DNA from: Fodinicurvata sp. EGI_FJ10296
GTDB taxonomy: Bacteria > Pseudomonadota > Alphaproteobacteria > DSM-16000 > Inquilinaceae
Assembly: GCF_040712075.1 (NCBI RefSeq)
Contig: NZ_JBFCVL010000006.1
Coordinates: 310,001-374,000, forward strand
Length of the DNA stretch: 64,000 nt
Direction: 5' to 3'
The notes beneath the pieces are model-generated. The model was not told where the DNA came from. It worked only from the letters and a program-made list of their open reading frames with translations, and did no database searches. Below, one piece after another: positions 19,584 through 25,187 of the stretch. Position 1 is the stretch's first letter. Each line of letters starts with the position of its first letter. A program made the position numbers and the translations under genes.

Positions 19584-21053
19584 ATGAGCAACTCCATCCT
19601 TACCAATGTCGGCGCCCAGGCTGCTCTCCAGAACCTGCGCTCGGTCGGCAACAATCTCGGTCAGGTGCAGGAACGCATCTCCACCGGTCTCAAGGTCGGC
19701 AACGCCAAGGACAACGCTTCGGCCTATTCGGTCGCCCAGACCATGCGTGCCGACGTCGCCAGTTTCAAATCGATCGGCGAAGGGCTGTCCGTGTCGCAAA
19801 GCACGGTATCGGTTGCCCGGTCGTCGTCGGAACAGGTTTCGGATGTCGTCAAGGAGATCCGCACGCTGATCACCGATGCCGAGAACCCGGCGGTCAGCAA
19901 CGAAAAGGTTCAAGCCGATATTGATCAGCGCGTCAGCCAGATCGAAAGCATTGTCGGCGGCGCGCAGTTCAACGGCGTGAACCTGCTGAATGGCGGTGGT
20001 ACGGAACAGCTTCTGTCGTCCGTCGACCGGGCTGGCAACGACGTTTCCGCCAGCTACATCGACGCGACCCGCGCCGACCTTCGGACCAATGGCGGCCTTG
20101 GCATGCTGGACAATCTGCGTGTGGCCGACAGCCGTGGCGCCGAGCTCGTCGACCGCGCCCCGTCGAGCGAAGCGCAGGACGAGCGGGTTGTCTTCGATCT
20201 CGGCGGGCTCGACGGTTCCACAACGGGTGAAATCAATGCAGAAATCGATGGTACCACTGTCACATATACCGTCGCCGCCGGGGATACGGCCGATGATGTC
20301 CTACAAGGTATGGCATCTGCTATAGCCGGCGAGGTCGACACGGCGACGGTGCAGAGCGGCCGGATCATCGCCGAGCACTCTAGCGCCATCAACGTCTCGG
20401 AACTGACCACCCCGTCGGCCTTCACGGGCGCAACCAGCTTCGAGCACCAGAATCTGGCGCTGGGCGCGGACGAATCCGGCGCGCTGCTGAAAACGGGCGA
20501 ACAGCCGGAAGATGGCTCGGTCATTCGGTTTTCCGCCAACGGGGAAGATTACAAGATTACGGTGGACGGAGGCGGAACGAATTCGGATTTCCAACAGGAT
20601 TCCGGCGTGTTCGAAGCCGTTGCCGAGGATATGACTGGGATTGTCGATGCCATAAACACCGTCACCGGACTGTCGGGAACCGCGGCCGACGCCGACAATA
20701 GCGGCATGCTGCGAATCGTCGCCGACGCGGACACCAGCCTTGGTGGTGTCAATTTGACAAGCGGCACCGGCGAAGATTTCCAGACTCTGCTCGGCAAGGT
20801 CGAATCGGCTCTCCAGGTTTCGACGAATGCGGCGGCCGAGTTCGGCTCCGTCCAGCAGCGCCTCGACCTGCAGGAGGACTTCGTCAGCAACCTGACCGAC
20901 GCCCTTAATGAAGGTATCGGATCGCTGGTCGATGCCGATATGGCGGAAGAATCCGCCCGACTGCAGGCGCTGCAGGTTCAGCAGCAGTTGTCGTCTCAGG
21001 CGCTGTCGATTGCCAACAGCCAGCCGCAGAGCATTCTGTCCCTCTTCGGTTAA
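19584..21053 (+). CDS. fliC: Flagellin
   Basis: Filament subunit exported through the flagellum. The conserved D0/D1 N-terminus (NVGAQAALQNLRSVG, RISTGLKVGNAKDNAS) and C-terminus (ALQVQQQLSSQALSIANSQP and ILSLFG) are clear. The central part (about residues 165-400) is variable and Asp/Gly/Thr-rich. Length is 489 residues. GGGAAGAA lies just before the ATG. It is transcribed away from sciP and followed by a strong intrinsic terminator, so it is a single-gene unit. Confidence 0.97.
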   Translation: MSNSILTNVGAQAALQNLRSVGNNLGQVQERISTGLKVGNAKDNASAYSVAQTMRADVASFKSIGEGLSVSQSTVSVARSSSEQVSDVVKEIRTLITDAENPAVSNEKVQADIDQRVSQIESIVGGAQFNGVNLLNGGGTEQLLSSVDRAGNDVSASYIDATRADLRTNGGLGMLDNLRVADSRGAELVDRAPSSEAQDERVVFDLGGLDGSTTGEINAEIDGTTVTYTVAAGDTADDVLQGMASAIAGEVDTATVQSGRIIAEHSSAINVSELTTPSAFTGATSFEHQNLALGADESGALLKTGEQPEDGSVIRFSANGEDYKITVDGGGTNSDFQQDSGVFEAVAEDMTGIVDAINTVTGLSGTAADADNSGMLRIVADADTSLGGVNLTSGTGEDFQTLLGKVESALQVSTNAAAEFGSVQQRLDLQEDFVSNLTDALNEGIGSLVDADMAEESARLQALQVQQQLSSQALSIANSQPQSILSLFG

Positions 21054-21100
21054 GCGGCGCGGTCTCATCGATACCCGGCACGGCATTGCCGGCCGGTTCC

Positions 21101-21132
21101 GGGGCGCCTCGAAAGCGGGGCGCCCCTTTTTT
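21101..21132 (+). terminator. Intrinsic terminator after flagellin
   Basis: GGGGCGCC pairs with GGCGCCCC across a ten-base loop, followed at once by six Ts. It lies 48 bases after the flagellin stop. Confidence 0.95.
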
Positions 21133-21161
21133 GTAACCAGGGATATCGGGAAAGGGGAACC

Positions 21162-21653
21162 ATGATCGAGAATTCAGGCGGGCGGTATCTGCCAGTGTTG
21201 GGGGTTGTTCTTGTATTCGGGATCGCCGGTTCGGCCTTTGCCGATGTCGGCCGCGATACATTGCGCGAAACGGCCGATGCCGCCATCGACCTGATCGAGC
21301 GGGATGGCGTGGCGGCGTCCATGCCAACACTGGAAGAGCCGCCTTTTTTCGATCGTGGTTCCGGCCTTCACGTCTGGGCCATGGATGGCGATGCGATCGT
21401 GGTTCTGGATGCGTCGGAGCAGACATCGCCGGGCGACGATCTGTCGACCTTTTCGCTTGATGGCGACACGCCGGTTTCCGTTGAAATCCGCGAGGCCATT
21501 GCCGCCGGCGAGGTCATCGTCTGGCACGATCTGGTGCCTCATGCGGTAACCGGTGAACTGTCGACATCACAGGTCTGGTGCGTCGAAAGCACGGATGTCG
21601 ATGGGTATGAAGAGGTTGTGCTCTGTGCCATGGCCTGGTTCGACGAGGAGTAG
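21162..21653 (+). CDS. Secreted protein, possible single Cache-type sensor domain
   Basis: A 163-residue protein with a Sec signal peptide (VLGVVLVFGIAGSAFA, cleaved about residue 27). The mature part has an amphipathic helix with RETADAAIDLIERDG, then strands with GLHVWAMDGDAIVVLD and a SPGDDLSTF turn. That order resembles small extracellular Cache domains of chemoreceptors, but here there is no transmembrane or signalling domain. Two late cysteines (WCVES and VVLCA) may pair. It lies just after the flagellin terminator and may be a periplasmic binding protein. The Cache suggestion is tentative. Confidence 0.6.
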   Translation: MIENSGGRYLPVLGVVLVFGIAGSAFADVGRDTLRETADAAIDLIERDGVAASMPTLEEPPFFDRGSGLHVWAMDGDAIVVLDASEQTSPGDDLSTFSLDGDTPVSVEIREAIAAGEVIVWHDLVPHAVTGELSTSQVWCVESTDVDGYEEVVLCAMAWFDEE

Positions 21654-21701
21654 GGATTTCTGCCTTTTCCGATCTTAGCGGTGCCTGGCACCCATCGGGC
21701 T

Positions 21702-22560
21702 TCACACGTTCCACGAGAGCGTTGATAGTGTGGGCCCCGGCTCTGCAAAGCAGCATTTCATGCTGCATTGCGTCCGGGGCAGGGGAATTTTTGCGGCGTC
21801 GCCGCTCTATCACCTCCCCGGAGGTGCGAAGCGCCATCCGGCAACTGTGTTTATTGCCTCAGCTTCCGCCCTCTATTTCAACCCCGGAAGCACGAAGTGC
21901 TGTCCGGGGTCTACACGTTCCGCGAGAATGTTGATAGTGTGGGTCCCGGCTCTGCGAAGCGTCACTTTGTGCCGCATCGCGTCCGGGGCAGGGGAATTTT
22001 TGCGGCGTCACCGCTCGATCACATCCCCGGAGGTGCGAAGCACCGTCCGGCAACTGTGTTTATTGCCTCAGCTTCCGCCCCCTATCTCATCCCCGGAAGC
22101 ACGAAGTGCTGTCCGGGGTCCACACGTTCCGCGAGAATGTTGATAGTGTGGGTCCCGGCTCTGCGAAGCGTCACTTTGTGCCGCATCGCGTCCGGGGCAG
22201 GGAATTTTTGCGGCGTCGCCCCTGTATCCCGTCCCCGGAGGGGCGAAGCACCGTCCGGCAACTGTGTTTATTGCCTCAGCTTCCGCCCCCTATCTCATCC
22301 CCGGAGGTGCGAAGCACCGTCCGGCAACTGTGTTTATTGCCTCAGCTTCCGCCCCCTATCTCATCCCCGGAGGTGCGCAGCACCATCCGGGGTCCACACG
22401 TTTCGCGAGAACGTTGACAGTGTGGGCCCCGGCTCTGCGAAGCGTCACTTTGTGCCGCATCGCGTCCGGGGCAGGGGAATTTTTGCGGCGTAGCCCCTCT
22501 ATCACTTCCCCGGAGGTGCGCAGCACCATCCGGGATCCACTACTAACGCGAGAATTTACC
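21702..22560 (+). repeat. Tandem array of palindromic repeats (about 209-bp unit)
   Basis: Four copies of a unit begin at about 21702, 21911, 22120 and 22394 (spacings 209, 209 and 274), and a degenerate fifth start is at 22537. Each full unit contains a short lead ending GTTGATAGTGTGG, a large imperfect hairpin (CCCGG...CCGGG; 21735-21779, 21945-21987, 22154-22196, 22427-22471), and small hairpins with GAA or GCA loops (21816-21841, 21882-21909, 22025-22050, 22091-22118, 22233-22258, 22299-22324, 22365-22392, 22508-22534). Hairpin arms differ between copies in ways that keep pairing. The array runs into the GIY-YIG gene. No convincing protein is encoded in it although reading frames stay open. 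Confidence 0.93.
22249..22380 (+). repeat. 66-bp direct duplication inside the repeat array
   Basis: Two adjacent 66-base copies (22249-22314 and 22315-22380) that differ at a single position. This explains why the third-to-fourth unit spacing is longer than 209 bases. It looks like a recent slippage or unequal exchange event. Confidence 0.92.
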
Positions 22561-22881
22561 GTGCAGCCCTGCGTCTACATCATGACCAATCGTCGCTGCG
22601 GTACCCTTTATGTCGGATCGACCAGCGACATAGTCCGCCGGGTGTGGGAGCATCGGCATGCCGAGGTCGCGAGCTTCACGAAGCGGTACGGGATCCGGCT
22701 CCTCGTCTATCTGGAATACTACGAACTGTTGCTGGAAGCCCGCCGTCGCGAAGCACTGATCAAGCGATGGCAGCGGCCATGGAAGATCCGGCTTATCGAG
22801 TCGTTCAATCCGCAATGGTGCGACCTGTCGGCCGAACTCCCCGGCCCTCCACAGAAAACAATCCCATCATCAGGAATATAA
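22561..22881 (+). CDS. GIY-YIG nuclease family protein
   Basis: A 106-residue stand-alone GIY-YIG domain of the UPF0213/URI1 type. The VYI...LYVG core is visible (CVYIMTNRRCGTLYVGSTSD), followed by the catalytic-type arginine in VRRVWEHR and the later EARRREALIKRWQRPWK helix, ending with NPQWCDL. The domain cuts DNA phosphodiesters in characterised relatives. The start is a GTG, matching the usual N-terminus (xxxVYIM); the first ATG lies seven codons later. The GTG is 24 bases into the degenerate fifth copy of the repeat, so its leader is made of repeat sequence. A promoter-like element and terminator follow it. Confidence 0.88.
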   Translation: MQPCVYIMTNRRCGTLYVGSTSDIVRRVWEHRHAEVASFTKRYGIRLLVYLEYYELLLEARRREALIKRWQRPWKIRLIESFNPQWCDLSAELPGPPQKTIPSSGI

Positions 22882-22884
22882 TCC

Positions 22885-22914
22885 TTGACCCGAAGCGGCA
22901 ACTTTAAGTAGAAT
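22885..22914 (+). promoter_or_regulatory. Sigma-70-type promoter
   Basis: TTGACC and TAGAAT are separated by 18 bases, close to the consensus. Transcription would start near 22921. It begins four bases after the GIY-YIG stop and is followed within 60 bases by an intrinsic terminator. Confidence 0.55.
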
Positions 22915-22920
22915 AACCGC

Positions 22921-22980
22921 AGCAGGGCGATAGCTGTATCCGATCACAGCGCGCGAACCATCCGGTTCGCGCGCTTTTTT
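22921..22980 (+). ncRNA. Possible short terminated RNA or leader attenuator
   Basis: The stretch from the predicted start of the promoter at 22885-22914 to the end of the terminator T-run is about 60 bases. It would give either a very short RNA or the attenuated leader of the downstream phage-like genes. It does not match a family I know. This is an inference from promoter and terminator placement only. Confidence 0.3.
22948..22980 (+). terminator. Strong intrinsic terminator
   Basis: A 12-bp perfect stem (AGCGCGCGAACC with GGTTCGCGCGCT, four-base loop) followed by six Ts. It ends any transcript from the GIY-YIG gene or from the promoter at 22885. A second GC-rich hairpin without a T-run follows at 22995-23022. 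Confidence 0.93.
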
Positions 22981-23079
22981 GCGTTCAGCGTCTGGGCGCC
23001 GCCGGTGAACTCCGGTGGTGCCAGCGGTGCAGGCATATCGTCCTGGCTTTTGCTCACACATCAAAGGGAGAGCCAAACC

Positions 23080-23439
23080 ATGGCTTTGACCACCGAAGGT
23101 TACAACATCGCCGCCGCAGCCATTGCCGCCGCCATTGCCGAGGTGTCCCTGCACGGCGACACCCCCGGCGCCGAGGGCGCGGCCGAAATCGAAGGCGGCG
23201 ACTATCAACGCCTGCCGGTTTCGTGGTCGGACCCCTTGGCGGGGTCGGTCGGCGCGACCGAGGCAGCGGCCGGCACGCTGATCTTTGCCGTGCCCGCGAA
23301 TGCGACCGTCGCCCATATCGGCCTTTGGTCCGCGGACGGCGTCTTCCTGGGCGCCGCGCCGGTTCCCGAGCGCAGCTATACCGAGGCTGGCGAGTACCGC
23401 ATCAGCGCCCTGACCGCCCTGGTTCATGCGTGCCATTGA
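23080..23439 (+). CDS. Phage tail-like small protein
   Basis: A 119-residue protein starting MALTTEGYNIAAAAIAAAI after AAAGGGAG. The pattern 'LHGDTPG', 'GGDYQRLPVSW', 'FAVPANATVAHIGLWS' and 'FLGAAPV' is common in small virion/tail-associated proteins encoded near tail fibres of tailed phages. There is no signal peptide and no other structural phage gene nearby (no terminase, capsid or portal). It may be a domesticated or orphan phage gene. The function is unknown; the phage link is from recollection of the motif and is not certain. Confidence 0.6.
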   Translation: MALTTEGYNIAAAAIAAAIAEVSLHGDTPGAEGAAEIEGGDYQRLPVSWSDPLAGSVGATEAAAGTLIFAVPANATVAHIGLWSADGVFLGAAPVPERSYTEAGEYRISALTALVHACH

Positions 23440-23495
23440 GGCCGACATGAAAGTTTCGAAAACCCTTCACCGCTGATGAATGGGAGATGACGAGA

Positions 23496-25187
23496 ATGAT
23501 TGAATATTTGGCCGGCGTGGCTGGTCGGTATGGTGGCTCCAAGGCTCTGCGCGCTGATGGTAGCGAAATTTGGTATCAGGATGAATATCGGCATGTCACC
23601 GCAGTCGCGTTGGCACCTGATGGATCGGCCTTTCAGGTCAATGAAGACCGAAATCAGGGTGCGACCGTCCTGCGGCTCGCGTCAGATGGTACCGTTCTTT
23701 GGGCCCGAAATACCGGGTCCAATGCCAACGCGCTCGCGTTGGTCGCCGATGGTGGCGTCGTAGTCGGAACGGATTCCGACTCATCGGGCAGCCTATGGCG
23801 CTTCAGCGCCAATGGCGATTTGGTATGGACCGCCAATACGGGGCTGAGGGTCCTCGCCGTTGCCGTTACCACCGACGGCCGGATCGTCGTCGGTGGTGCG
23901 GGCAGCCAGGTCCCGAGATTGCAGCTTTACAGCCCGGCGGGCGACCGCATCTGGTCCGCCGACCACGGTGGGCACGTCCGCGCAATCGCGTCCACGGCCG
24001 ATGGTGGTTGGGTTGTCGGCGGCGACCGGACGGCCGGTATGACGGTTCGCCGCTATCGCGATGACGGGCTGCAGATCTGGCTGGCCGACGTCAGCGATGA
24101 AGTGCGTGGACTGGCGGCAATGCCGGACGGCGAAGTCGTCGCCGTCGGGGATCCCCCCAGGTCGGGCCGGCCGAACATCTTCCGTCTGTCTGTCGACGGG
24201 ATGCTACAATGGTCCTCGGTCGTGACGACCGGTTACCTGCAAGGTGTGGCGGTCGATAGTACGGGTATGATCTGGGTCACCGGCTATTGGGATGACGAAT
24301 ACAATACCGTCTTCAAACTCAATGCTGGCGGCGGATTGATTTGGTCCGGCCCGCCGATCCGCGGTAACAGTGCATCCAATGGTTCCGGTATCGCCGTCCC
24401 TGGACCGAACTTCGCCTTCCAGCCAGCAGCACAGGACCTGGTTTCGCCGCCGCTGACGCTGGATATCGGCGTGGCGCTGGGGGTTATCACGCCCTATGGC
24501 ACGGTTACCGGCGATCCATTGGATGGCGATTCTTCCGGCGATGATCAGTCAGGCGGTGATCAGTCAGGCGGTGATCAGTCAGGCGGTGATCAGTCAGGCG
24601 ACGACCAACCCGGCGATGATCAGTCGGGCGATGACCAGTCCGGCGACGATCAGTCCGGCGGCGACCAGTCGGGCGATGACCAGTCCGGCGGCGACCAGTC
24701 GGGTGACGACCAGTCGGGTGACGACCAGTCCGGCGACGACCAGTCCGGCGATGACCAGTCGGGGGACGATCAGTCTGGCGATGATCAGTCCGGCGACGAC
24801 CAATCCGGCGATGACCAGTCGGGTGACGACCAGTCGGGTGACGATCAGTCGGGCGACGACCAGTCCGGCGGTGATCAGTCCGGTGACGACCAGTCCGGCG
24901 ACGACCAGTCGGGCGATGACCAGTCGGGAGATGACCAGTCTGGCGACGACCAGTCTGGCGACGACCAGTCCGGCGATGATCAGTCGGGTGACGACCAGTC
25001 GGGCGACGACCAGTCCGATGGCGATGGGTCGGGCCGGTCCTGCAGTTGCGTTCCATGCGGACCGGCAGTGCACCCGGATGCCGTGCGGGCGATCGACCAG
25101 TGCGGCGGCCGGGCCGGTGCGCATCCGGCGCTTCGCCCCCTCAAGCTGCGCAAGGTCGTGACCACGACGCAGTTCGAATGGGCCTGA
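23496..25187 (+). CDS. Beta-propeller protein with SGDDQ pentapeptide repeat region
   Basis: A 563-residue protein in three parts. Residues about 1-320 hold seven repeats of about 40 residues, each with a DG-x-x-x-W turn (for example DGSEIWYQ, DGTVLWAR, NGDLVWTAN, AGDRIWSA, DGLQIWLA, DGMLQWSS, GGGLIWSG), fitting a seven-bladed propeller of the WD40/PQQ-like class. Then come 32 pentapeptides, mostly SGDDQ. The last about 55 residues contain CSCVPCGP and one more cysteine. No signal peptide is seen. GGGAG nine bases before the second ATG supports this start over an ATG three codons upstream. It sits between two phage-like small genes. Its role is unknown; a tail-fibre or surface-binding role is possible. 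Confidence 0.75.
   Translation: MIEYLAGVAGRYGGSKALRADGSEIWYQDEYRHVTAVALAPDGSAFQVNEDRNQGATVLRLASDGTVLWARNTGSNANALALVADGGVVVGTDSDSSGSLWRFSANGDLVWTANTGLRVLAVAVTTDGRIVVGGAGSQVPRLQLYSPAGDRIWSADHGGHVRAIASTADGGWVVGGDRTAGMTVRRYRDDGLQIWLADVSDEVRGLAAMPDGEVVAVGDPPRSGRPNIFRLSVDGMLQWSSVVTTGYLQGVAVDSTGMIWVTGYWDDEYNTVFKLNAGGGLIWSGPPIRGNSASNGSGIAVPGPNFAFQPAAQDLVSPPLTLDIGVALGVITPYGTVTGDPLDGDSSGDDQSGGDQSGGDQSGGDQSGDDQPGDDQSGDDQSGDDQSGGDQSGDDQSGGDQSGDDQSGDDQSGDDQSGDDQSGDDQSGDDQSGDDQSGDDQSGDDQSGDDQSGDDQSGGDQSGDDQSGDDQSGDDQSGDDQSGDDQSGDDQSGDDQSGDDQSGDDQSDGDGSGRSCSCVPCGPAVHPDAVRAIDQCGGRAGAHPALRPLKLRKVVTTTQFEWA
24534..25013 (+). repeat. 15-bp tandem repeat, 32 units, encoding SGDDQ
   Basis: Thirty-two in-frame 15-base units. 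The amino-acid unit is Ser-Gly-Asp-Asp-Gln in most, Ser-Gly-Gly-Asp-Gln in six and Pro-Gly-Asp-Asp-Gln in one. Synonymous changes are scattered (GAT/GAC, TCG/TCC/TCA), but units 2-4 are nearly identical at the DNA level, suggesting recent expansion there. The result is a strongly acidic, probably extended linker. Confidence 0.97.

Follow-up and report, generated by a model that had tools for sequence, protein, structure and literature searches.

The comparisons reported here indicate that stand-alone GIY-YIG nucleases of ~90-106 residues are probably each paired with a palindromic repeat family of their own, and that the gene and repeat array in the window (the whole 64,000-nucleotide stretch analysed, C6:310001-374000 of a 4.83-Mb assembly) are one member of this widespread system. 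On the best reading of the sequences, the GIY-YIG family would be the dedicated enzyme of the CGTC REPs, RAYT-like in its working and non-homologous to RAYT. The family's repeats form REP-like hairpins in which the stem is mostly preceded by a YGTC-like tag and followed by a CCA tail; scattered solo repeats and gene-less inverted pairs are taken to be the non-autonomous members. The case rests on the GIY-YIG family, not on the copy in the window.

Palindromic repeats beside GIY-YIG genes

CGTC REPs were defined by Di Nocera et al. in 2013, mainly in Alphaproteobacteria. They were reported to be unassociated with transposase genes and were concluded to have no dedicated transposase; the repeats bearing this tag include dRS3 of Neisseria and RPE-4/6 of Rickettsia (PMC3733652). 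To survey the GIY-YIG family, the 106-aa protein of the window was searched against 387 genomes of the class (one BLAST query, E 1e-5). A homologue was present in 139 of these, some having several, up to ten. A first sample of 93 loci was picked solely by protein match, mostly one per genome, and read with flanks; a second, of 45 loci, included paralogues and records from Neisseria, Aeromonas, Novosphingobium and Sinorhizobium. The combined 138 loci come from 97 genomes or records, which are not independent of one another and whose named relatives are mostly alphaproteobacterial.

CGTC REPs are visible in the upstream flanks even as read-through peptides, such as VIPAKAGI. When defined strictly, as a [CT]GTC tag followed by a perfect stem starting AT and then CCA, they occur at 3.5 per kb within 100 bp of the GIY-YIG gene and at ~0.01 per kb beyond 2 kb, and a reversed-tag control returned 0. 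Strict members lie within 300 bp of 57/138 GIY-YIG genes, compared with 22/1071 (2%) of the other ORFs (p 4e-41). Bracketing was scored independently of any defined sequence, as the best inverted match between the 300 bp upstream and the 300 bp downstream, with a score of at least 14 counting as a bracket. By this measure 70 of the 93 loci in the first sample are bracketed, as against 14/1065 shifted positions and 3/806 (0.4%) other ORFs; in the second sample the count is 33 of 45. The expectation that palindromic repeats would be enriched beside GIY-YIG genes in other genomes is thus borne out, with a CGTC-type REP within 300 bp or a bracket at 116 of the 138 loci (84%). Across about a hundred, mostly alphaproteobacterial, genomes, the matching-repeat brackets suggest that GIY-YIG proteins are the missing partner of CGTC REPs.

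One could attribute this proximity to coincidence, with REPs gathering in intergenic space in a terminator or structural role, and with small dispensable genes lying among them. REPs are mostly intergenic (PMC3733652), but the low values for other ORFs in the same loci contradict such an origin for the GIY-YIG family, and it would leave the co-variation of repeat and protein described below unexplained. Coincidence could apply to the single window locus only, and as a general explanation it is highly improbable.

At the level of whole genomes, REP-rich genomes (at least 40 matches to the CGTC-AT pattern) more often have the gene (27/39 vs 112/348, p 1e-5, uncorrected for genome size or phylogeny and based on per-genome pattern counts that are noisy). 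The other 12 of the 39 are without a homologue detectable by the one BLAST query at E 1e-5.

Two records illustrate the range of settings. In Neisseria gonorrhoeae, a GIY-YIG homologue (L202, 3001-3267) lies between dRS3-type palindromes (CGTCATTCCCGC...GCGGGAAT), which would link this well-known repeat to the GIY-YIG protein family. On Planktothrix plasmid p1 (L204, 2986-3270), a GIY-YIG gene lies among GTCATTCTGAG-type palindromic arrays, with an MmeI-type restriction gene on one side and drmA of a DISARM locus on the other.

Co-variation of repeat and protein, and filled and gene-less sites

Different GIY-YIG genes have different repeats, also inside one genome. Across genomes, the more similar two proteins are, the more similar are their repeats (Mantel r 0.35, p 0.001), and among same-genome paralogues, in which the host is held fixed, the correlation is r 0.58 (permutation p 0.0006). 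The cross-genome correlation falls when repeats are exchanged between paralogues (p 0.0003). A forward prediction was made with a rare repeat, GTCATCCTGAT-N4-ATCAGGAT, read off the flanks of the orthologues L214 and L228: it is present in only 2/387 genomes, both of them the hosts, at 21 and 8 copies. As these hosts belong to one genus, shared descent contributes to this result.

Typically, one copy of the repeat lies on each side of the gene, the two in inverted orientation. Among close REP pairs without a gene between them, 31/32 are inverted, as are 27/36 of the pairs that span a gene. The clearest comparison of filled and gene-less sites is provided by the interval between fnrL and a response regulator on Sphingobium megaplasmids. 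Here, four plasmids have CGTCACCCCGGG-CTTGA-CCCGGGGTCCCGC, the gene, and GCGGGACCCCGGG-TCAAG-CCCGGGGTGACG. In TYG64 (L298) the same interval has no gene and holds a single palindrome, CGTCACCCCGGG-TCAAG-CCCGGGGTGACG, an apparent fusion to which the left REP contributes its left half and the right REP its right half. The gene-less site of TYG74 (L299) resembles that of TYG64, and in both the palindrome has a CGTC tag at either end; TYG72 and TYG65 have neither gene nor palindrome at the interval. A hybrid palindrome of this kind could originate from nuclease action at the hairpins or from slippage between them.

Other sites differ in their history. At the L115 site, the element is present in one species, a left REP remnant in its sister and nothing in others, reflecting gain or loss; in L250 (G398), at this site, the left REP is retained and an unrelated ORF stands in place of the GIY-YIG gene. 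L173 and L176 represent one site in two species, in which the flanks are 84-85% identical, the GIY-YIG genes are only 66% identical and the repeats differ, as if one allele had been replaced. The empty-site query for L221 found no syntenic site in relatives. GIY-YIG paralogues are without signs of recent duplication, so that the element as a whole moves rarely or did so long ago.

These layouts bear on an alternative in which the gene is a homing-type passenger: the nuclease would cut REP pairs and its gene would be copied into the break, with the repeats not spread by the nuclease. If the gene were purely a passenger, the commonest repeat should hold many GIY-YIG copies, rather than there being one per repeat type. 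Instead, each same-genome paralogue has a different repeat that tracks the protein, and the rare repeat is abundant in no genomes other than the two that carry its GIY-YIG orthologue. Several observations nonetheless speak for a passenger: the noncoding REP pairs are inverted like the gene-spanning ones, as if the gene had come to lie inside a pair; TYG64 is readable as an unoccupied target; the flanks and genes of L173/L176 resemble an allele replacement; the fold relatives include the homing endonuclease I-TevI; and the 106-aa protein has a weak NCBIfam match to group I intron endonucleases. On balance, passenger status is unlikely, and a nuclease paired with its own repeat family is preferred.

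The presence or absence of the gene at single sites between close relatives, the patchy presence across the class (139/387 genomes) and the many paralogues in some genomes argue against a further alternative, in which a Slx1-like enzyme of the host, with a housekeeping function, would trim or resolve the hairpins or cruciforms of REPs, be kept adjacent to them by selection and have no role in mobility. The structural model does resemble Slx1, which is active on branched DNA, and the genes show no recent self-duplication, as would be anticipated for such an enzyme; we nevertheless regard it as very unlikely, and retain the paired nuclease and repeat as the working explanation.

The array and gene in the window

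Upstream of the GIY-YIG gene, Tandem Repeats Finder and repeat searches identify a forward-strand tandem array of a 209-bp unit (21696-22305; 2.9 copies, 92% matches), whose units bear hairpins, and a nested sub-array of a 66-bp subunit (22217-22390; 2.6 copies, Tandem Repeats Finder), with one small hairpin per copy. A partial unit follows the sub-array. The original prediction of four copies of a ~209-bp unit therefore stands for the array itself, with the count being closer to three full units plus a sub-array and a partial unit. In total the array contains four large (B) and eight small (A) hairpins, all annotated on the forward strand, and Rfam returned no known RNA family over 21000-23500.

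The B hairpins lie at 21731-21780 (GGGYCCCGGCTCTGC...GCGTCCGGGGCA, read from the sequence and from the fold of 21740-21785), 21941-21989 (sequence, fold and comparison with L183, whose GIY-YIG gene is bracketed by repeats of this family), 22150-22198 (sequence) and 22424-22472 (sequence and fold). As single strands they have folding z values of about -2.4 to -3.4, and the A hairpins of about -3.7 to -5.7. The A pattern, CCGGA-N4-CGNA-N6-TCCGG, has 8 exact matches in the window, and 9 with one mismatch against 0.54 expected. These matches place A hairpins at 21818-21841, 21884-21907, 22027-22050 (also by fold), 22093-22116, 22235-22258 (with CGTC directly before), 22301-22324, 22367-22390 (also by fold) and 22510-22533 (also by fold, and nearest to the gene). 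The A stems vary with pairing kept (GGTGCGAAGCACC, AAGCACGAAGTGCT, GACGCGAAGCGTC), and the second hairpin, AAGCACGAAGTGCT, is changed on both sides of its stem.

A fifth, degenerate copy had been proposed at the gene start, and it proves real but weak. On the forward strand, the degenerate start of a further unit (22534-22577), TCCAC...CGCGAGAAT, overlaps the start of the gene; when it was aligned with three units, its score was reached by 1, 5 and 42 of 1000 shuffles. The gene thus appears to start within a degenerate copy that resembles the post-hairpin part of the unit. Downstream of the gene, alignment to the units found no repeat copy or remnant above shuffles. The sole clear terminator-like stem for the gene, at 22948-22975 downstream, is not a repeat copy, and a terminator role for the REPs here was rejected. 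Further downstream, ORF 23487-25187 contains a 15-bp tandem repeat (24534-25017, ~32 copies) encoding (DQSGD)n.

The gene itself (22561-22881, forward strand) has the predicted GTG start and encodes 106 residues, and its assignment as a stand-alone GIY-YIG nuclease is confirmed by PF01541 (E 6.6e-12; 46 bits against a cut-off of 22.6), by invariant columns and by AlphaFold. The protein start, MQPCVYIM, agrees with relatives that start ATGCAGCC. Nine columns are invariant across 75 homologues and all are kept in the 106-aa protein; they include Y6, G19, R27, H31, E64 and N83, among which are the Tyr, Arg, His and Glu residues expected to serve GIY-YIG catalysis. AlphaFold models the protein confidently as a single domain (pLDDT 88), whose nearest neighbours by fold are UPF0213 NMR structures, Slx1, UvrC-N and I-TevI. 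UPF0213 (YhbQ-type) proteins are the nearest PDB chains (E 7e-4), and no UPF0213 NCBIfam model matched at E 1e-3. An anti-phage defence family was considered and set aside, as PADLOC gave no significant match.

Unlike most of the family, this locus (L186) is one-sided: the array lies upstream, no partner was found downstream, and the inverted-repeat score is 8, so that the gene is not bracketed. It is a diverged member, the tree placing the 106-aa protein on a long branch and not with the L183 protein. Because it is one-sided and its protein sits on a long branch, the window locus may be a decaying member of the GIY-YIG/REP family.

The repeat also occurs beyond the array, as a check on the complete genome had been expected to reveal. 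There are 51 exact copies of the A hairpin in the 4.83-Mb genome (reversed-pattern control, 0), and BLAST of the array unit against the same genome gives 85 pieces; the window array is the largest A-hairpin cluster (8/51). The consensus of 45 copies is C[CA]TC-CCCGGA-stem-CGAAG-stem-R-TCCGGGG-TCCACACG. Of the genome's four GIY-YIG matches, two are stand-alone homologues: the gene in the window and a second on C11. Downstream of the C11 gene lies its own palindrome, CGTCCCCGCCTTGAGCGGGGACCTCG, with 17 copies at 11 sites genome-wide, three of them within ~360 bp of the gene, so that both stand-alone genes adjoin different dispersed families. No Y1_Tnp (Y1/RAYT transposase) match was obtained in this genome, and RAYT involvement there is ruled out on that basis.

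In 16 other genomes of the order the A-hairpin pattern is not enriched, indicating that the window's repeat family is not common to the order. Among other genomes of the class, the B-hairpin pattern is positive only in G317, with 17 copies, and there the B-type family brackets the GIY-YIG gene L183. This class-wide pattern required a gap of at least 22, and the window copies, with a gap of 21, fall one short of it; its zero in the window's own genome is consequently an artefact.

Relation to known systems and a possible mechanism

The window repeats resemble CGTC REPs in their CCA-like tail, with GGTCCA after the stem in most copies (C in 45/45, C in 32/45 and A in 36/45 at +4 to +6). The tag is C[CA]TC (CCTC or CATC) in most of the 45 copies, and CGTC precedes one window copy; in CGTC REPs the tag 5' of the stem is CGTC, or TGTC/CCTC. 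The stem begins CCCGGA, whereas that of CGTC REPs begins AT (8-9 bp stem), and the array is a direct tandem, not the inverted (head-to-head) pairs in which CGTC REPs mostly occur. With its CC-starting stem and direct tandem array, the window family falls outside the strict CGTC definition. GTAG REPs also differ, since the tags here are CGTC-like and the stem of the window consensus is preceded by C[CA]TC and followed by TCCA.

The closest parallel in organisation is with REP/REPIN-RAYT systems (REPtrons). In both, inverted copies of a dispersed palindrome stand on either side of a small nuclease gene, cognate repeat and protein co-vary, several paralogues may occur in one genome, each with its own repeat, and inverted repeat pairs are the likely mobile unit (PMC3116915, PMC8266576). 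Inverted REP pairs with and without a gene reproduce the layout of REPINs and RAYT genes (PMC3116915). As with RAYTs, family members are flanked by their repeat, the repeat is dispersed and its type tracks the enzyme, the window locus itself being one-sided. The enzyme is of GIY-YIG type and not the Y1 HUH (IS200-type) of RAYTs; the genome has no Y1_Tnp match.

GIY-YIG homing endonucleases (I-TevI type) and Slx1, UvrC and UPF0213 have the same catalytic fold and residues. The present family differs from all of these in consisting of one minimal domain, with neither an intron nor a recognition domain, and in having a multicopy palindrome of its own on its flanks. In eukaryotes, Penelope-like retroelements use a GIY-YIG domain for element mobility and need a reverse transcriptase; no reverse transcriptase was seen adjoining the GIY-YIG gene here. 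A literature search for a link between GIY-YIG proteins and REPs found none, preprints and subscription papers being outside its scope.

If the nuclease acts on its repeat, the process would likely involve: recognition of the folded or cruciform cognate repeat; cleavage at or near the hairpin; and strand transfer, or repair that copies or fuses repeat halves, resulting in movement or loss of the element and in new, lost or hybrid copies. The GIY-YIG protein would in this way have the role ascribed to RAYT (Y1 HUH) transposases at GTAG REPs. The original prediction, of a REP-like system with a different nuclease that may bind, cut or spread its palindromes, is supported in part: in the family, repeats are enriched beside the genes and repeat type tracks the protein. 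At the window locus the association lies on one side, and that the protein binds and cuts the hairpins, and the way in which they spread, are what we infer. Held more tentatively, as a possibility just short of an even chance, is the broader proposal of a separate class of prokaryotic mobile element: one that has a minimal single-domain GIY-YIG protein as its sole enzyme, is bounded by inverted CGTC-type REPs, made and still maintains the CGTC REPs of Alphaproteobacteria and others, and is independent of RAYTs.

REPs rank among the commonest bacterial repeats, and to our knowledge an enzyme is known for the GTAG type only. The data single out a ~90-residue protein as the candidate for this role in CGTC REPs, making the question directly testable. 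If the assignment is correct, REP-like repeats would have two or more origins involving unrelated nucleases, and nothing beyond a GIY-YIG domain would be needed to sustain a mobile repeat family. A GIY-YIG partner may likewise account for dRS3 of Neisseria and similar repeats, the gonococcal homologue lying among dRS3-type palindromes.
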